From: Thermomonas sp. S9
Lineage (GTDB): Bacteria > Pseudomonadota > Gammaproteobacteria > Xanthomonadales > Xanthomonadaceae
Length of the DNA stretch: 64,000 nt
Direction of reading: 5' to 3'
Assembly (NCBI RefSeq): GCF_024704365.1
Contig: NZ_JAJDFY010000001.1
Location: 2,647,001 to 2,711,000 of the forward strand
The translations under genes and the position numbers were made by a program. The notes beneath the pieces were generated by a model. It ran no database searches and had not been told where the DNA came from. It was given only the letters and a program-made list of their open reading frames with translations. This document shows, in pieces, positions 16,791 to 39,733 of the stretch (position 1 is its first letter; each line of letters begins with the position of its first letter).

Positions 16791-17981
<1,191 letters not shown>

Positions 17982-18033
17982 GACTGCGTCTCGTTGGGTT
18001 TGCCTGCCGCGACAGGCGTGAGGTTGCGAATAA

Positions 18034-18109
18034 TGGTGCTCACGAATGGAATCGAACCATCGACCTCCTCCTTACCAAGGAGGTGCTCTACCGACTGAGC
18101 TACGTGAGC
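18034..18109 (-). tRNA. tRNA-Thr (anticodon GGT)
   Basis: 76-nt cloverleaf with acceptor GCTCACG/CGTGAGC, anticodon stem CCTCC/GGAGG around TTGGTAA, and an encoded CCA end. Last tRNA of the cluster before tuf. Confidence 0.97.
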
Positions 18110-18136
18110 AGGTTTTACGACAGGGCCGTGCAATGG

Positions 18137-18210
18137 TGGAGCGGGAGACGGGAATCGAACCCGCGCTAGTAGCTTGGAAGGCTACAGTTCTACCATTGAA
18201 CTACTCCCGC
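18137..18210 (-). tRNA. tRNA-Gly (anticodon TCC)
   Basis: 74-nt cloverleaf with acceptor GCGGGAG/CTCCCGC, anticodon stem GTAGC/GCTAC around CTTCCAA, and an encoded CCA end. Located between the tRNA-Tyr repeat array and tRNA-Thr. Confidence 0.97.
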
Positions 18211-18264
18211 ACCGGGAGCCCTGCTTGTTGCATCCCCGGCTGGTAAGGCCGGCGATCTTGGAGC

Positions 18265-18628
18265 TGGTGGAGGGAGGTGGATGGCGGCGGCGCTACGCGC
18301 CTTGGCCCTCCGGGCCGCGCCTTCGGCGCGCTCAGCAAGGCTGACGCCTTGCTGTCGAACCAGCGGTGGCTCTCATCCACCTCCAGTCCGCACCCTGCTA
18401 CAACCCGACACCTGGTCCAGCGACAATCCCTTGAGGCTGGTGGAGGGAGGTGGATGGCGGCGGCGCTACGCGCCTTGGCCCTCCGGGCCGCGCCTTCGGC
18501 GCGCTCAGCAAGGCTGACGCCTTGCTGTCGAACCAGCGGTGGCTCTCATCCACCTCCAGTCCGCACCCTGCTACAACCCGACACCTGGTCCAGCGACAAT
18601 CCCTTGAGGCTGGTGGAGGGAGGTGGAT
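18265..18628 (-). repeat. Tandem 173-bp repeats bearing tRNA-Tyr 3' tails
   Basis: Two direct 173-bp units (18265-18437 and 18438-18610), nearly identical by eye, lie immediately downstream of tRNA-Tyr. Each unit ends, in the direction of transcription, with the last 18 nt of the tRNA-Tyr gene (ATCCACCTCCCTCCACCA); the third copy of this tail is the tRNA itself. The gap between tRNA-Tyr and tRNA-Gly is therefore 400 bp instead of a few tens. Each unit also holds four consecutive hairpins. The plan parallels the 178-bp tRNA-tail repeats of the E. coli tyrT operon. No protein gene in the units is convincing. Confidence 0.93.
18462..18527 (-). other. Four-hairpin block in repeat unit
   Basis: Four perfect palindromic arms follow one another: GGCGC/GCGCC (18462-18474), GGCCC/GGGCC (18477-18489), GCGCC/GGCGC (18490-18502) and the 9-bp CAGCAAGGC/GCCTTGCTG (18506-18527). 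The same block recurs 173 bp away in the other unit. It could stabilise or process the tRNA transcript or act as a REP-like element; the function is not shown. Confidence 0.8.
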
Positions 18629-18696
18629 TCGAACCACCGAAGGCGTAAGCCAGCAGATTTACAGTCTGCCCCCGTTGGCCGCTTGGGTATCCCTCC
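18611..18696 (-). tRNA. tRNA-Tyr (anticodon GTA)
   Basis: 86-nt class II tRNA with acceptor GGAGGGA/TCCCTCC, anticodon stem GCAGA/TCTGC around CTGTAAA, a long variable arm and an encoded CCA end. It is the first gene of the tRNA-tuf operon, and its 3' end is reiterated in the downstream repeats. Confidence 0.97.
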
Positions 18697-18742
18697 GTAC
18701 ATCTCTCGATGCGGGGCGGTGAAGCCCCTCAAAGAGCCCGTT

Positions 18743-18771
18743 ATTGTTGCCGCCACTTGCAGCCATGTCAA
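18743..18771 (-). promoter_or_regulatory. Promoter of the tRNA-Tyr operon
   Basis: On the minus strand a perfect -35 TTGACA (18766-18771) and a -10 AACAAT (18743-18748) are separated by exactly 17 bp, about 46 bp before the tRNA. A GC-rich stretch follows the -10, as in stringently controlled stable-RNA promoters. Confidence 0.8.
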
Positions 18772-18822
18772 CACGGCGCACCGGGATTTTTCGCGGATGC
18801 CCCGCAGGCCGGCCCAGGCGCC

Positions 18823-19331
18823 TCAGCTGGCCGCGGGCGGCGCACGCACGTAATCGACGAAGGCGAAGGCCAGCGGGTGCGCGGCATCCGCCGGATGCAC
18901 GCTGCGCCCGACCTCCCGCCAGCGTCCCGGCGGCAGCGGCGGGAAGAACGCATCCGCCCCTCCACCGCCGTCTCGACATAGGTGAGATGCAGGTGGGTGG
19001 CCTGCGGCAGGGCCAGCGCGTACACCTGCGCCCCGCCGATCACGCACAGCTCGCTGGCGCCCGCCTCGGCGGCGAGCGCGCGCGCCTGCTCCAGCGAGGC
19101 CACCGCCTGCATCTCGGGGAACGGCACCTGCCCGCCACGGGTCAGCACCAGGTTGCGCCGCCCCGGCAACGCCCGCCCCAGCGACTCGGCGGTACGCCGC
19201 CCCATCAGCACCGGCTTGCCCAGCGTGAGCAATCTGAACCGCTTGAAATCGTCCGGCAAATGCCAGGGCAAGGCGTTGCCGCGACCGATGGCCCGGTTGC
19301 GGTCCAGCGCGGCGATCAGCGAGAGGCGCAT
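18823..19331 (-). CDS. folA: Dihydrofolate reductase (single-base frameshift in this sequence)
   Basis: Reduces dihydrofolate to tetrahydrofolate, the partner step to ThyA encoded just upstream. The start MRLSLIAALDRNRAIG carries the typical substrate/NADPH pocket; GNALPWHLPDDFKRF and GKPVLMGRRTAES follow. The frame breaks at about 18954-18961 after LTYVETAVEG; adding one base joins it to ADAFFPPLPPGRW and the end FVDYVRAPPAAS. The corrected length is ~169 residues, normal for FolA. An ATG at 19344-19346 could add five residues. Confidence 0.92.
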
Positions 19332-19353
19332 ATCGGCAGCAGGCATGGTCGGC

Positions 19354-20148
19354 TCACACCGCCACCGGCGCCTTGATCGCCGGCCACGGATCATAGCCTT
19401 CGATCGCGATGTCCTCGTAGCGGAAGCCGAAGATGTCACGCACATCCGGATTCAGCCTCAGCACCGGCAGCGGGCGCGGCTGGCGCGCCAGCTGCGCGCG
19501 CGCCTGGTCGAAGTGGTTGGTATACAGGTGGGCATCGCCCAGGGTATGCACGAAATCGCCCACGCCCAGCCCGCACACCTGCGCCACCATATGGGTCAGC
19601 AGCGCGTAGCTGGCGATGTTGAACGGCACGCCGAGGAAGATGTCGCCGCTGCGCTGGTACAGCTGGCAGCTCAGGCGGCCATCCGCGACATAGAATTGGA
19701 ACAGGGTGTGGCAGGGCTGCAGCGCCATCTTCGGCAGGTCGGCCACGTTCCAGGCGGAGACGATCAGACGGCGCGAATCGGGATTGCGGCGGATTTCCTC
19801 GACCACCCAGCGGATCTGGTCGAAGGTCTGCCCGTTAGCGCCTTCCCAGCTGCGCCACTGCTTGCCATACACCGGCCCCAGCTCGCCGTCCGCATCCGCC
19901 CACTCGTCCCAGATCGAAACCTTGTTGGCCTTCAGGTAGGCGATGTTGGTGCTGCCCTGCAGGAACCACAGCAGCTCGTGGATGATCGAGCGCAGGTGCA
20001 ACTTTTTGGTGGTGACCAGCGGGAAGCCTTCGCGCAGGTCGAAGCGCATCTGCCAGCCGAACACGCTGCGAGTGCCGGTGCCGGTGCGGTCGGCCTTGTC
20101 GGTACCGCGCTCCAGCACGTGGCCCAGCAGGTCGAGGTACTGCCTCAC
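19354..20148 (-). CDS. thyA: Thymidylate synthase
   Basis: Converts dUMP to dTMP using methylenetetrahydrofolate. The GTG start (20146-20148) overlaps the lgt stop by 4 nt and gives 264 residues, the E. coli length. The active-site segment [13 protein letters not shown] contains the nucleophilic cysteine; [12 protein letters not shown] and [11 protein letters not shown] are also conserved. It is coupled with lgt upstream and folA downstream, a frequent arrangement in Gammaproteobacteria. Confidence 0.98.
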
Positions 20149-33043: not shown

Positions 33044-34018
33044 TCAGGCGGACCAGCGGTGCAAAAGTTCGCGGGACATCTCGGCCAGGCTGCGCGACTC
33101 GCCGCCGCGCGTCACCAGCATGCGGCTGCTGGCCGGATCGAAGCAATTCTCGGGGGCCTGGCCGTACGCCATAGCGCCGGCCAGGCGCAGCGACAGCGCG
33201 GCGTCCACCCCCGACGGATCGGCCCCGCTCAGCAGCAGGATGGCGCTGTCGGCCGCCGGCAGCCCGGCAAAGCGCGGCTCGCCTTCGCAGGTGGCGAAGA
33301 TCGCCCCGGCCGGCGCGCGCACCACGTCCAGCCCGTCCGGCATGACGTGCACGCAGCCCGCCTGCAGCGGCTCGCCGGGCTGGGCCAGCACCACCTGCAT
33401 CAGGGTGGCGCGCTGCATCTGCCGCACCAGCTTGTCGTACTGCCCGCCCTCGAGCTTCTGGCGCAGCAGCACCGGCCGCGGGAACCGCGCCGGCAGGCTG
33501 GCCAGCAGCTGGCGCACCGCATCCGGGCCGCCGATTCCGGCCACGATCGCCACCGCCCCGGTCGGCGCGGCGGGGGCGTGCGACGGCGCCTGCGGCACCT
33601 CCGGCAGCGCCGCCACCTGCAGCGCCAGTGCCTGCATTTCCTCGACGAATCCGATCCGCGCGCTGTGCCCGGGCGCCGCGGGCAGCACGTCGCCATGGCC
33701 GTCCAGCTTGGCCGCCAGGTGCCGGGCCCAGCGCGCGGCCTCCCAGCCGTCGCGCCTGGCGGCGACCTCGGCCTCGTCGAACACCACGTCCAGCCCCGGG
33801 TCGGCCAGCAGCGGATCGAACCGGTCCAGCACGCCTTCGGTGGCCGCATCCAGCACCACTACCAGCGCCTGCGGTGCCTGCGCGCGGACCGCCGCCTCGT
33901 CGGCCTCGGCCGGATCCAGGGAGGCGGCCAGCGTCGCGCCTGCCGCGTGCACCGCCTGTTCGGTGCGCTCGCGCGCGGCGCCCGGGCGCGCCAGCACCAC
34001 CACGCGGCGCCCGCTCAT
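33044..34018 (-). CDS. chpB: Degenerate CheB-like protein, ChpB position
   Basis: 324 residues. The C-terminal half (from ~residue 155) follows the CheB methylesterase fold, but all three catalytic positions differ: the Ser of GASxGG is Gly (AIVAGIGGPDA), the His of QH is Lys (LLRQKLEGG), and the Asp of GMGxDG falls at Ser (LSGADPSG). The N-terminal half looks like a degenerate receiver without a clear phospho-Asp motif. It overlaps the chpA stop (ATGA). It is probably not an active methylesterase. Confidence 0.75.
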   Translation of the reverse strand: MSGRRVVVLARPGAARERTEQAVHAAGATLAASLDPAEADEAAVRAQAPQALVVVLDAATEGVLDRFDPLLADPGLDVVFDEAEVAARRDGWEAARWARHLAAKLDGHGDVLPAAPGHSARIGFVEEMQALALQVAALPEVPQAPSHAPAAPTGAVAIVAGIGGPDAVRQLLASLPARFPRPVLLRQKLEGGQYDKLVRQMQRATLMQVVLAQPGEPLQAGCVHVMPDGLDVVRAPAGAIFATCEGEPRFAGLPAADSAILLLSGADPSGVDAALSLRLAGAMAYGQAPENCFDPASSRMLVTRGGESRSLAEMSRELLHRWSA

Positions 34019-37000
34019 TGCGCCAGCCCGTCACCCACGTACTCGAGCTTGAGCAGCTCGAACACGTTGCGCATCAGTTCCGGCTCCTGGTAGGGCTTGC
34101 CCAGGTAGCGCTCGACCCCGATCTCCATCGCGCGTTGGCGGTGCTTCTCGCCGGTCCGCGAGGTGATCATCACGATCGGCACGTCGCGCAGGCGCACGTC
34201 GGCCTTCATCGCGGTGGCCAGCTCGTAGCCGTCCATGCGCGGCATTTCGATGTCGAGCAGCATCAGGTCGGGCACCAGCTCTGCCATGCGCTCCAGTGCG
34301 TCCAGGCCGTCCTTGGCGGTGGCGACCTCGAAGCCGTGGCGTTCCAGCACGCGGCCGGTGACCTTGCGCATCGTCACCGAATCGTCCACCACCATCACCA
34401 GCGGGACGCGGCGGGTCTCGACCGGCGCCGCCACGCCATGCTGCAACGCACCGGACGCCGCCAGGGTCGCCTGGCGACGCACCAGCGGGGCCACGTCGAG
34501 GATCACCACCACGCGGCCATCGCCCATGATGGTCGCGCCGAAGATGCCCGGCACCGAGGCCAGCTGCGGGCCACCGGTCTTGACCACGATTTCGCGGCTG
34601 CCCAGCACCTGGTCGATCGCCACCGCCGCGCGCAGTTCGCCCGAGCCGACCAGCAGCAGCGGCATCTGCAGATGCCCTTCGGCCTTGGCCGGCGCGGTGC
34701 CGACCAGCACGCCGAGATCGTGCAGGGCATAGTCCTCGCCGCCGTAGCGGTAAACCGCCCCGGCCTGCGCGAGCTCTTCGCGCGCGATGCGGCCGACGCC
34801 ACGCACGGCTGCGATCGGCACCGCGTATTCGGTCTCGCCGATCTTGACGAACACCGCCTGGGTCACCGCCAACGTCTGCGGCAGGCGCAGGGTGAAGGTG
34901 GTGCCGGCGCCGGGGCGCGAGGCGATGTCGATCGAGCCGCCGAGCTGGCGCACTTCGCTGGCCACCACGTCCATCCCGACCCCGCGGCCGGCGAGCCGGC
35001 TGACGGTCTCGGCGGTGGAGAAGCCCGGCTGCATGATCAGCTGGTACAGCTCGGCATCGGTGAGCTCGGCATCGGCGGCGATCAGGCCGCGCTCGATGCC
35101 GCGCGCGCGGATCGCGGCGCGATTCAGGCCGGCGCCGTCGTCACTGATCTGCAGCACCACTTCCGCCCCCTCGCGGCGCACCGCGACCCGGATGCTGCCT
35201 TCCTCCGGCTTGCCGGCGGCCTGGCGCGCCTGCGGGGTTTCCAGCCCGTGCGCGATGGCGTTGCGCAGCATGTGCTCCAGCGGCGCGGTCATGCGCTCCA
35301 GCACGTTGCGGTCGAGCTCGCCCTGCGCGCCCTCGACCCGCAACTGGGCCTGCTTGCCGGTCTCGGCGGCGGCCTGGCGGATCACCCGGCGCAGGCGCGG
35401 CACCAGCGAATCGAACGGCAGCATGCGCGTGCGCATGAGGCCTTCCTGCAGCTCCGAGCTCACCCGCGACTGCTGGGTCAGCAGGGTCTCGTACTGGCGG
35501 GTGAGGTCTTCCATCGAGCCGTGCAGGCTCTGCAGGTCGGCCGCGGACTCGGCCAGCGCGCGCGAGAGCTGCTGCAGGGTGCTGAAGCGGTCGAGTTCCA
35601 GCGGGTCGAACGCCTCGCGCCCGCTGTCGCTCTCGCGCTGGAAGCGCGCGATGATCTGGGCCTCGGTTTCGGCATCCAGCCGCCGCAGCTGGTCGCGCAG
35701 GCGCAGATTGGTCTGCTCCATTTCCGCCGCGGTGCTGCGGAAGGCCGACAGCTGCTGCTCCAGGCGCGCGCGGTAGATCGCGACTTCGCCGGCGTAGTTG
35801 ACCAGGCGGTCGAGCAGGTCGGCGCGGATGCGCACCTGCTCCTGCGGCGCACGCACGCCGATCTCGTCGTCCTCGAACGCGCCTTCCGGCCGGATCGGGG
35901 GCGACAGCGGCGCGAGCACGGGCCTGGGCGCCGGGGCCTCTGGACGGGGAGCGGCAGCCTCGGAGGATTCCGCCGCTGGCACAGCCGCCGCCGGCGCGCG
36001 GTTCTCGGCGCGGGCGTTGAACTCGTCGATCAGGCCGTCCGGCATGCCGATGGCACGCCGCGCGGCGATCCGGGTGATCATGGTGTGCAGGCGGTCGAAA
36101 CCGCGTTCCAGCAGCGCCACGCCGGCGTCGCCCAGCTCCACGCGCTGCGCCGCCACCGCTTCCAGCAGGGTCTCCATGGCGTGACCGAGTTCGCCCGCCG
36201 CCATCACGCCAGCCATGCGCGCGCCGCCCTTGAGGGTGTGCAGGTCGCGCTGCAGGCCGACGATCAGCTCGTTGTCGTCCGGCGTCTCGCGCAGCTGCGC
36301 CAGCAGGCCGTCGGAATGGTCGAGCAGGTCGCCGGCCTCCTCCACGAAGACGTCCACCAGCTCGGAGATCGAGCTCGCGGGTGTCGAGGGCTTCGTCCGG
36401 GTCCTCGGCCGCCGCCGCGGTGGACTGCAGCGCCGCCAGCGCGGCCAGCTCGCGCGCCTTGGCGGCAGCAGCCGCCTCGGCGGCGCGCCGCTCGGCCTCG
36501 CGGCGCTCGGCCTCGGCGCGGGCTGCCGCGATGCGTTCGGCTTCGAGGCGCTCGGCTTCAGCTCGGGCCGCCGCGATGCGCTCGGCTTCCAGCCGCTCCG
36601 CCTCGCGACGGGCCGCCTCTTCCGCCGCGGCCTGCTCGGCGGCAATCCGTTCGGCTTCGGCGCGAGCAGCTTCCTCCGCAGCCAGCCGCTCGGCCTCCGC
36701 CTGCTCGGCTGCCAAGCGTTCTGCCTCCAGCAGCGCCGCCTCGGCAGCCGCCTGTTCGGCCGCCAGCCGTTCGGCTTCCTGACGCGCCGCTTCCTCCGCG
36801 GCCAGCCGCTCGGCTTCCTCGCGCGCGGCCTGCTCGGCCGCAAGCCGCTCCGCTTCCTGACGCGCCGCTTCCTCCGCGGCCAAGCGTTCGGCTTCCTCGC
36901 GCGCGGCCTGCTCGGCCGCAAGCCGTTCGGCTTCCTGACGCGCCGCTTCCTCCGCGGCCCGACGCTCGGCCTCTTCGCGCGCCGCCTGCTCGGCCGCAAG

Positions 37001-39733
37001 CCGCTCGGCTTCCTGACGCGCCGCTTCTTCCGCGGCCAAGCGTTCGGCTTCCTCGCGCGCCGCCTGCTCGGCCGCCAGCCGTTCGGCTTCCTGACGCGCC
37101 GCTTCCTCCGCGGCCAAGCGTTCGGCTTCCTCGCGCGCGGCCTGCTCGGCCGCAAGCCGTTCGGCTTCCTGACGCGCCGCTTCCTCCGCGGCCCGACGTT
37201 CGGCCTCCTCGCGCGCCGCCTGTTCGGCCGCCAGCCGCTCGGCTTCCTGACGCGCCGCTTCCTCCGCGGCCTGGCGTTCGGCCTCCTCGCGCGCCGCCTC
37301 CTCTTCCGCCGCCTGGCGCGCGGCGTCCTCGGCTGCCAGCTGGGCGTGATCGACGAACGGCAGGCTGGCTTCCGGCAGGGTATCGCGCAGGGCCGCCATC
37401 CGCGCCGCCAGCGCGGCATACACCGGCACCTGTATCGGGGTGGCCTGCAGCGCGAGGGTGGAGACGCGCACCGCCTCGGCCACCTCGGCCAGCGCGGCCA
37501 GGCCAGCGGCATCGGCCGGCTGCTGCGCGGCCAGCAGGCGCTTGATGTAGCCCTCGGCGGGCGCGGTGAACGCGGTCACCGTCGGCACCTCGCTCATCGC
37601 AAAAGCGCCGTTGAGGGTATGGATCGCGCGCAGCAGGCTGCTGTCGGCCTGCGCCTCGCCGGCGCGCGCGCCGGCCAGCCAGGCCTGTATGGTCTCCAGA
37701 TGGCTGCCGACTTCGGCGCCCAGAATCTCCAGCAGCACCGGATCCACCAGCACCACCGCCGTTTCCGGCGCGGCGGGCGCGGCCGGTGCCGGCTCCTCGA
37801 CCGGCGCGGCGGCCCCATCCGCTTCGACCACGGCTACTGCAGCCGCCTCGATCAGCACATCCTCGCCGGCCGCCAGGCGGTCGGCCACGGCTTCCATCGC
37901 CGGGATGTTGGCCGCGACCGCGGCCCCGTCGCGCAGGGCCGCATGCAGGGCCGGCAGCAGTTCGCGCGCCTGGCCGACGAAGGCCACCACCGCCGGACTG
38001 GCCGGGCGCGAGCCGTCCAGCACGCGGTTGAGCATGTTCTCCACGTGCCAGGCGAACTCGCCCAGCACCCTGGCGCCGACCAGCCGGCCGCTACCCTTCA
38101 GGGTGTGGAACACGCGCCGGATCGGACGCAGGGCTTCGGCATCCTCGGGCGTCATGCGCCAGGCCGGCAGCAGGGCGTCGAGGTTGGAAATCTCGTCCTG
38201 GAACTCCTCCAGGAAGATTTCGCGGATCTCGTCGTCGATCTCGTCCCCGGCGGATTCGAACCCGGCCGCCATCGTGGTGCCGGCCGGCACCACGTCCACC
38301 GCCACCGCGGCGGGCCTGGCCGCCTCCGCGGCCGCGCTGGCCTCCGCGGCGAGGCCGGCGGCGATCTCCGCCGCCGCATCGGCTTCGTCCACGGCATCCG
38401 TTCCGGATACGGTGGCGGTATCGGCTTCGACCGCTGCCGCAGGCGCGTCCGCGACCGGCTCGGCCGGCGGTGCCGCTTCGGCCACGGCCGGCAGCGGCCA
38501 GTAGCGCAACGCCTCCAGGCTGGCGCGGGTCTTGTCGAGCAGGTCCAGGCGCTGGCCGAGCGGGTCGTGCAGCGACTCGAGGAAATACTCCATGCTGGCC
38601 AGCGCATCGGCCAGGGTGTCCAGGGTCTGGCCACCCGGCACCTGCCGGCGCTCGACCAGCTCGCGCTGGGTGAACTGGCGCAGCGCGTCCAGATAGCCCG
38701 CCGGCAGCGGCTGCTCGAGGATGCGCAGGGCGCCGGCGACTTCGGTCAGCAAACGCGGCACCGGCTCCAGGGTGGCGTGGTCCCAGTCGGTTTCCACGAA
38801 CGCGACGAACGCGTTGCGCACGTCCGAGAAATTGCTGATGGCGGCGCGGGTGAGCGCGCCCATGACCTTGCGCGATTCCTGCGCCAGCAGGTCACCGGCC
38901 TCGGCGTCGCGCCCGCCGGCGCCGAGGTGGGCCACCTGATCGTCCAGCGAATGGTCGATGTAGATCAGCGCGCCGGCCACGTCCAGCAGCGCGCCTTCGT
39001 CGAACGGACGCGCGCCGCTGGCGATCGCGTGCACGATCCGGCGCTGCTCCTGGACCACGCCGCGGGCGCTGTCCAGGCCGAGCATGCCGAGGGTTTCGCC
39101 GATCCGGTCCAGCGCCTCCACCTGCGGCTGCAGTTCCTGCACGTTGCCGTGCCCGGCGCGCAGAAACAGATCGAGCGCGTCCTTCACCTTCAGCAGGTCT
39201 TCCTTGATCGCCGCGGCCACGGTGTCCAGCAGCGCGCGGTTGCGCCCGGCCAGGCTGCCGCGCGCATGCTCGAGTTCGGCCTCGGTCGGCGCCACCAGCA
39301 GCGAGGGCAGCGCGTCCTGGCCCAGCTCGGGCGCGCCGCGCGCCGCGCGCAGGGCGTTGATCAGCGGCAGCAGCACGATCGGGATGTCGCGATGGCCGCC
39401 CTGCAGGCGTTCCAGGTAGTCCGGCAGCTGCACCACGCCGCGCATCAGCACGGCCAGCGCCTCGTCGCGCGCGGGCACGCCGCCGGCGTGCAGCGCTGCG
39501 GCCAGTTGCTCCATCTCGCCCGCCACCATCGCCGGGGCCTGCAGTTCGAGCATGCGCAGGGTGCCCTGCACCTGGTGCAGGTGGTCGATGCAGGTCTGCA
39601 TCGGTGCCGGGTCGCCGGGGGCCTCGGCGAACGCCTCGAGCTCGATCCGCGCCTGCCGCAGCGCCTCGTCGATCTCCGGCTTCACCCAGCCGAGCGCGGT
39701 GTGGTCGATGGCATCCCGCAACGCCGTGGTCAT
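34015..39733 (-). CDS. chpA: ChpA/PilL hybrid chemotaxis kinase (single-base frameshift)
   Basis: Central kinase controlling type IV pilus extension and retraction. Corrected for one base at ~36370 it is ~1905 residues. Four histidine-phosphotransfer domains are recognisable by LHQVQG, FHTLKGS, IHTLNGA and LHTLKGG. Between the third and fourth lies a ~290-residue E/A/R-rich coiled coil built from 26-residue repeats. Then come a dimerisation domain, CheA-type ATPase ([18 protein letters not shown]), CheW domain and a C-terminal receiver ([20 protein letters not shown]). Pseudomonas ChpA has more Hpt-like modules. Confidence 0.93.
36450..37330 (-). repeat. 78-bp tandem repeats within chpA
   Basis: From about 36720 to 37330 the same segment (GACGCGCCGCTTCCTC on the plus strand) recurs exactly every 78 bp, at 36781, 36859, 36937, 37015, 37093, 37171 and 37249. 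Each unit encodes two 13-residue modules, [13 protein letters not shown] and [13 protein letters not shown]. Towards 36450 the units become diverged and shorter. Such arrays readily change copy number by slippage. Confidence 0.92.

Follow-up and report, generated by a model that had tools for sequence, protein, structure and literature searches.

Downstream of tRNA-Tyr in the tRNA–tuf cluster of Thermomonas sp. S9, two long direct repeats each end with a copy of the end of the tRNA gene, which raises the question of what kind of element they represent and how it came to be built. The locus was studied within a window of 64,000 nt, which is the whole stretch of DNA that was analysed. The array lies on the minus strand, and ‘downstream’ thus refers to falling coordinates. 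The cluster is composed of the following features:

18743–18771, minus strand: promoter-like site upstream of tRNA-Tyr (consensus match only, 10/12, 17-nt spacer)
18611–18696, minus strand: tRNA-Tyr(GTA) (ARAGORN and Rfam tRNA model)
18438–18610, minus strand: probable tRNA-linked repeat unit 1, 173 nt, first after tRNA-Tyr (repeat and sequence comparison)
18438–18455, minus strand: tail copy 1, tRNA-Tyr positions 59–76, exact (sequence comparison)
18265–18437, minus strand: probable tRNA-linked repeat unit 2, identical to unit 1 (repeat and sequence comparison)
18265–18282, minus strand: tail copy 2, tRNA-Tyr positions 59–76, exact (sequence comparison)
18211–18264, minus strand: spacer from the array to tRNA-Gly, 54 nt (sequence comparison)
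18137–18210, minus strand: tRNA-Gly(TCC), next gene of the cluster (tRNA call)
18034–18109, minus strand: tRNA-Thr(GGT) (tRNA call)
16791–17981, minus strand: elongation factor Tu gene (tuf), downstream of the tRNAs (Pfam GTP_EFTU domains)

The sequence-only reading of this locus had reported two 173-bp direct repeats after tRNA-Tyr, each ending in the 18-nt tail, and this was confirmed: units 1 and 2 match at 173/173 letters, which rules out a chance repeat, and both tail copies are exact (18/18 nt), in line with the 18–19 bp that mark tRNA-linked repeats (TLRs). The original of the tail, i.e., the last 18 nt of tRNA-Tyr (positions 59–76 including CCA), lies at 18611–18628, and unit 1 begins at the base right after this CCA. 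TRF assigned the array a score of 732 and 2.1 copies, and the copy number of two falls within the one to five units per locus of E. coli K-12. A DNA search of the own genome returned both units and, at the array edge, a single partial match of 26 nt; a covariance model (R1, introduced below) matched the same two units.

Both units were matched by the Rfam family RtT (RF00391) over all 130 model positions (1–130) with 42.8 bits and an E value of 2.4e-6, at 18438–18570 in unit 1 and 18265–18397 in unit 2, while missing the gathering cut-off of 45 bits. The structure plan of the family, an outer helix with the tail and inner helices, is present, with three non-standard pairs marked in the alignment. 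At the tyrT–tyrV locus of E. coli K-12, four units show the same order of parts as the units of the window. The earlier comparison with E. coli tyrT was therefore right, but too modest: the match to RtT is full-length, and it rules out an unrelated analogue of tyrT. Since the same structured unit occurs in E. coli, the ‘different repeat sequence’ remarked on at the time does not mean that the two are unrelated. The array shares with the E. coli K-12 TLRs (rtT/RttR, tyrT–tyrV) the site after a stable RNA gene, the 18–19 bp end identity, the tandem units and the order complement, P2, hairpin core and tail, but differs in core and arm sequence, in host lineage and in an Rfam score just below the cut-off. 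Its position is also typical, directly downstream of tRNA-Tyr with tRNA-Gly and tRNA-Thr following on the same strand, presumably as one operon. We consider it likely that the units are TLRs, members of a class that includes Rfam RtT and consists of a copied tRNA 3′ end, a core and a complement, and that would be co-transcribed with the tRNA, released by tRNA processing, duplicated, and spread as cores within lineages.

The term ‘tRNA-linked repeats’ is taken from PMC8144298, the available excerpts of which place 22 TLRs at ten loci of E. coli K-12 and give each of them an end of 18–19 bp shared with the upstream tRNA or rRNA. According to the same excerpts, E. coli TLRs have been known since 1978 without a known function, a role in starvation that had once been claimed was withdrawn, and RNase E was suggested by the authors to recognise the repeat. 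An editorial on that work likewise speaks of tRNA-linked repeats (PMC9245011, in part). RtT-family sRNAs were described near Asn and Lys tRNAs in Actinobacillus, with RtT in Pasteurellaceae genomes (PMC4986893, in part), which had already extended the family beyond Enterobacterales, and rtT-like sequences were found in BIMEs (PMC2965389, in part). By eye, a similar hairpin chain is shared by the E. coli TLRs after 5S rRNA (RrA, RrB and RrF), which differ in their host gene and in a common 3′ repeat of 13 nt of 5S and 5 nt of flank; for these, interaction with Hfq and CsrA was reported in E. coli (PMC8144298, in part). A further relative may be Rfam sX4 (RF02223), the consensus of which reads as a tRNA, a spacer and the start of the unit arm GGGGGGUGAGA. 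Its model weakly matched tRNA-Tyr together with the start of unit 1 (18546–18698, 28.3 bits at a cut-off of 70). The family differs in being filed as a separate sRNA that includes the tRNA and, of the unit, no more than its start. Expressed sX4 was found near tufB and trnG in Herbaspirillum (PMC6337395, in part), and on sequence grounds this ‘proteobacterial sRNA’ may be a tRNA–TLR transcript.

In 5′ to 3′ order, unit 1 consists of a 53-nt leader, the arm, GA, GAGCC, a short loop, GGTTC, GA, the 72-nt core and the tail copy. The tail copy reads ATCCACCTCCCTCCACCA, and the arm GGAGGTGGAT is the complement of its start. The parts were placed as follows:

18548–18557, minus strand: P1 arm of unit 1, complement of the tail copy’s first 10 nt (closing helix P1; predicted fold and P1 covariation in 130 distinct aligned units)
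18528–18545, minus strand: helix P2 of unit 1 (GAGCC/GGTTC) and GA (sequence comparison)
18456–18527, minus strand: core of unit 1, 72 nt, four predicted hairpins P3–P6 (predicted fold)
18375–18384, minus strand: P1 arm of unit 2 (unit 1 shifted by 173, the units being identical)
18283–18354, minus strand: core of unit 2, four predicted hairpins (unit 1 shifted by 173)

The stretch GGTTCGA of the unit equals tRNA positions 52–58, the tail copy equals positions 59–76, and the core sits between the copies of positions 58 and 59, so that in its 3′ half the unit repeats the tRNA from T-arm to CCA, interrupted by the core at 58/59. An E. coli 5S-linked unit carries the strand GAGTAGGA in place of GGTTCGA, close to the 5S sequence GAGTAGGGA before its tail. 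In the predicted fold of 18257–18429 (173 nt, unit 2 shifted by 8 nt; −90.4 kcal/mol, z −3.3 vs. shuffles), the arm is paired with the tail copy, and according to this model the tail copy and its complement can close a long outer helix. A preference of the fold for the sense strand was not significant (36/60 units, p = 0.22), and G-T and A-C combinations in P1 were balanced (102 vs. 105). One P1 column pair (21/293) held 40 G-U against 6 unpaired combinations in an alignment that leans to structure, which hints at pairing in the sense strand. At the junction of P1 and P2, GA faces GA in 55/91 and TC or TT faces GA in 20/91 placed units (124 examined); these counts are compatible with tandem G-A or normal pairs, and TTCGAA is also simply the complement of the T-loop.

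Whether the ends of a unit belong to its own host gene was followed in 147 distinct units (four from E. coli), selected downstream of tRNA genes with a terminal CCA for similarity to the tail at ≤3 mismatches. The tail copy is exact in 120 of them and starts at tRNA position 57 in 6, 58 in 100 and 59 in 41 units. When the P1 arm was compared without gaps to its own tail at positions 63–70, for which 109/147 units were usable, 475 Watson–Crick pairs were counted, while shuffled tails had a mean of 333 (sd 12, maximum 374) and 0/2000 shuffles reached the observed value. The fit is clear for Tyr, Gln, Glu and Lys and weak for Ser (3.32 vs. 2.79 of 8, 59 units), and the own tail was not favoured by this gapless test for Pro (1 unit) and Asp (3 units). 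At 30 positions, the tail copy departs from the tail of the tRNA. The arm can pair with the former at 19 of these and with the latter at 13, so that neither is clearly preferred.

Covariation was assessed on 135 model matches (130 distinct) from 100 loci of our own choosing, some of which had been used in building the model, in an alignment fitted to the structure. Under these conditions, 92.4% of cells pair, and 280 are changed on both sides, compared to a shuffle mean of 80.6 and 38–70 for slid versions; in the outer part of P1, all 6 pairs show two-sided changes. The start of the T-arm copy was determined on the units with exactly one GGTTCGA (214/238), reduced to 193 by taking one per locus and tRNA. 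Here, the bases before GGTTCGA agree with the own tRNA at position 50 in 86/193 and at position 51 in 152/193 units (shuffle maxima 70 and 95), while positions 48–49 show no match to the own tRNA beyond shuffles, indicating that the copy starts near position 50. A unit is thus a copy of host tRNA positions ~50–76, split at 58/59 by a core of ~72 nt and preceded by the complement of the tail. In locus L212, the tRNA gene lacks CCA, and the tail copy lacks it as well and extends into 26 nt of genomic 3′ flank. Copying from the mature tRNA, as in retroviral priming, had been prompted by the 18-nt length and is ruled out by this locus; the copy must derive from the gene or its precursor. Terminator palindromes were seen by eye to run into the arm in L104 and L308, and a strict test for a palindrome across CCA and flank was positive in 4/105 placed units (101/206 not placed). 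A snap-back or template-switch origin of the arm is, with so few palindromes, not claimed.

With regard to distribution, the RtT model matched 16/60 relatives at E ≤ 0.01 and passed its cut-off in 2/60, which means that many TLR units are probably unannotated. The covariance model R1 was built from 13 units with 19 base pairs (match in unit 1 at 18438–18559) and was applied to other genome sets than the RtT model, the 60 relatives and the 200 genomes of the order being different samples. It found units in 119/200 genomes of the order (52/69 genera) at E ≤ 1e-3, and at E ≤ 1e-4 in 87/274 genomes of the class (75/222 genera) and in 57/299 genomes of a phylum draw that includes those of the class. 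The hosts were tRNAs for Tyr, Ser (four anticodons), Gln (two), Lys, Asp, Glu, Met, Pro, Thr and Arg. A copy of the tail (≤3 mismatches) was missing from 24 R1 loci; among 18 of these that were viewed, 13 were preceded by a tRNA on the same strand, in most cases with an altered tail copy. ARAGORN called no tRNA upstream of the unit in L018, L085, L087, L098 and L112.

In addition, contigs of GTDB genomes were scanned for a pattern of GGATGAGAACC, gap, GGTTCGAC, gap and AATCC, which holds neither acceptor nor tail sequence, and at least 117 stretches matched. Among the matches listed, a same-strand tRNA ends ≤500 nt upstream in 125/139, compared to 233/4680 random positions of the same loci; nine of the other 14 lie within 160 nt of the locus edge, and five are without such a tRNA. 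GGTTCGAC and AATCC resemble pieces of the T-arm; the matches nevertheless lie downstream of tRNAs and not inside them. A tail copy within 240 nt was exact in 67, had 1–3 mismatches in 17 and 4–9 in 19 of the 103 listed loci with a tRNA, where the host labels Leu, Val and Ala stem from one locus each and from ARAGORN alone. By record title, which can be wrong for metagenomes, the matches listed come from Gamma-, Alpha- and Zetaproteobacteria, Opitutae and other Verrucomicrobia, Flavobacteriales, Chlamydiae and Aminicenantes. A scaffold of Verrucomicrobiae strain DG1235 (L287), which is not titled as a metagenome assembly, carries two units with exact tails after tRNA-Tyr. While the feature of the window belongs to a known class, what is more than ordinary is this breadth and the rule by which the units are assembled, neither of which turned up in print in searches of an open-licence library.

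Within the genus, a tRNA-Tyr search of 25 genomes yielded 24 full-length Tyr loci in 23 genomes, and all of these were examined. In G008 (locus L156), the whole interval from tRNA-Tyr to tRNA-Gly is 54 nt long and agrees at 53/54 letters with the spacer 18211–18264 of the window, which makes the array a precise 346-bp insertion relative to this empty site. A unit or remnant is present in 5/24 intervals, namely two units in the window, one each in G018 and G019, one and a 76-nt partial unit in G006, and a 93-nt remnant in G016; the remaining 19/24 hold spacers of 52–92 nt. The remnant of G016 (L154) has lost the middle of the unit but retains the leader, the final hairpin of the core and an exact copy of the tail, which points to an internal deletion, and the partial unit of G006 (L009/L155) is similar to it. 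A comparison with relatives had been proposed in which patchy presence would favour simple duplication and conservation across genera a function. Both outcomes were obtained, as the units are patchy in the genus (5/24) and their architecture is conserved across genera (52/69 in the order, 75/222 in the class).

The following course of events is suggested by these data. With a promoter-like site upstream of tRNA-Tyr and no terminator-like site found in 17950–18850, the units should be transcribed together with the cluster from tRNA-Tyr to tRNA-Gly. The machinery for tRNA 3′-end processing would, by analogy, cut after the tRNA and after each tail copy, as each copy with its closing helix may be treated like a tRNA 3′ end, and one RNA of ~173 nt would be released per unit. 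The RttR RNA of E. coli is annotated exactly up to the final A of a tail copy, and the 5S-linked RrB RNA was mapped to 3 nt past its own repeat. Co-transcription is not assured for all members, since a terminator-like hairpin between tRNA and arm occurs in 35/105 placed first units (of 206), among them 0/18 Tyr units; the unit of the window is not part of the 105. The tail repeats would further permit gain or loss of whole units by recombination, and the two identical units of the window would then be young: the array is probably a recent tandem duplication of one TLR unit. Over longer times, the core would have spread among stable-RNA genes within lineages, with arm and tail adopting the sequence of the new host gene.

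This last step rests on a comparison of cores. From 92 units kept (one skipped by name, repeats of listed loci omitted), 75 units of 64 genomes of the order were compared, with one per genome, tRNA and locus and a mis-assigned row (L078) removed. Mean core identity was 0.77 for units that follow different tRNAs in the same genome (13 pairs). Within a genus, it reached 0.81 for the same tRNA (45 pairs) and 0.72 for different tRNAs (90 pairs), within a family but across genera 0.670 (50 pairs) and 0.647 (222 pairs), and between families 0.614 (386 pairs) and 0.612 (1969 pairs). Label shuffles within families reached the gap between same and different tRNAs in 0/300 cases at the genus level, 11/300 at the family level and 39/300 for other families. 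The nearest neighbour of a core shared tRNA and genus in 27/75 and came from another tRNA of the same genome in 4/75 cases. Within a genus, units thus appear to be mostly inherited in place by vertical descent, while beyond the genus, tRNA type is a far poorer predictor of the core than lineage. In genus g22 (G045 and G054), six units follow Gln, Ser-TGA, Ser-GCT and Ser-CGA tRNAs with cores that are 0.80–0.93 alike in same-genome pairs, and despite these similar cores, their arms and tails fit their own tRNAs. As far as sequence comparison allows, we infer that a core occasionally spreads between tRNA genes and that its ends are re-tailored to the new host. In its boldest form, which we regard as a tentative possibility, TLRs would be mobile, non-coding and bacterium-wide, settling at the 3′ ends of genes for stable RNAs. 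Only the ~72-nt core would move, while the closing helix would be rebuilt from the target each time (a copy of positions ~50–76 split at 58/59, plus complement), which would give the element the tail of whichever gene it currently follows; the RNA-end processing of the host would cut it out, and the tRNA would be left intact.

The same comparison bears on the reading that each lineage keeps a regulatory sRNA under selection, in which case patchiness would reflect loss only and cores would stay with their tRNA. The strong conservation of structure and the more similar cores of the same tRNA at the genus level speak for it, as does the interaction with Hfq and CsrA reported for those members that are linked to 5S rRNA in E. 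coli (PMC8144298, in part). However, between families tRNA type hardly predicts core similarity (0.614 vs. 0.612), and absence from 19/24 Tyr intervals shows the unit to be dispensable in this genus and argues against an essential role there. In addition, the 5S-linked members were reported to show no clear phenotype when deleted or overexpressed, and CsrA binding was predicted at <0.01 for the 19 TLRs of tRNA operons (PMC8144298, in part). On this evidence, the reading is rather unlikely.

A false duplication by the assembler, which would make the second unit an artefact, draws some force from the 100% identity of the units and from apparent frameshifts in two genes of the assembly (described below). 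Short-read assembly normally collapses exact tandem copies, however, and does not create them. One unit stands at the same place in G018 and G019, and one with a partial unit in G006, so at least one unit of the window is real. We consider an artefact very unlikely.

The 3′ ends of tRNA genes are classic attachment sites, at which phages and islands leave a direct repeat of the tRNA 3′ end, and tail copies might accordingly be remnants of integrative elements that recombined there. In a viral contig (L321, 5780–5950), a TLR unit lies beside a tRNA 3′ fragment in which ARAGORN calls no tRNA. This resembles what insertion of a provirus into a host tRNA followed by a TLR would leave, and the contig would fit such an origin. 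It was, on the other hand, the only match of the same pattern in the whole viral collection, compared to at least 117 in the genomes, although the two collections are of unlike size and type. The units of ~170 bp with their covarying, conserved folded core are unlike integrase remnants, nothing except the unit lies between the tail copies in the way of cargo, and the six neighbouring ORFs tested at 15.6–21.1 kb (NusG, SecE, EF-Tu, DHFR, thymidylate synthase and Lgt by Pfam) include no recombinase. An origin of the array as attachment-site remnants is likewise considered very unlikely.

Least probable of all is a plain tandem duplication by slippage or unequal exchange, with the tail as chance homology and no conserved element, which would account for the (near-)identical units of the window, G037 and G054 and for the varying unit number in the genus, but not for the same helix order with strong covariation after many tRNAs in many families, nor for a tail complement that fits each tRNA, which slippage would not make. 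The earlier suggestion of recurrent duplication anchored at tRNA 3′ ends stands in so far as copy number does change within the genus, while the conserved folded structure and its strong covariation argue against arbitrary slippage.

Overall, the data indicate that the TLR class is no enterobacterial curiosity, as the same unit is found after many tRNAs across Gammaproteobacteria and, by record titles, in other phyla. The rule by which a core is set at 58/59 into a copied host T-arm and tail, with the arm adapted to it, is directly testable. An old oddity is thereby turned into a comparative question, namely how a non-coding core reaches new genes, always with their tail, and what purpose the putatively released RNA serves.

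A few further observations were made along the way. Unit pairs in opposite orientation, 6–9 kb apart, were seen in G173, G210, G066 and G102, and two such opposed pairs stand at a Ser-GGA and a Ser-CGA tRNA (L051/L101 and L041/L097). In the window, the Pfam DHFR_1 match of the dihydrofolate reductase frame at 18768–19445 (minus strand) ends at profile position 122/159, and the C-terminal remainder is unlike DHFR, suggesting a frameshift. A hybrid kinase with Hpt, CheA-type ATPase, CheW and response regulator domains extends over two overlapping frames at 34015–39733 (minus strand). By eye, the frame switches at around 36.4 kb, next to a tandem repeat of 78/234 bp that is rich in Ala and Glu, and the split looks like a frameshift or an assembly indel. 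Together with a completeness of 89.9% in 2 contigs, the frameshifts in the kinase and in DHFR may be uncorrected sequencing indels.
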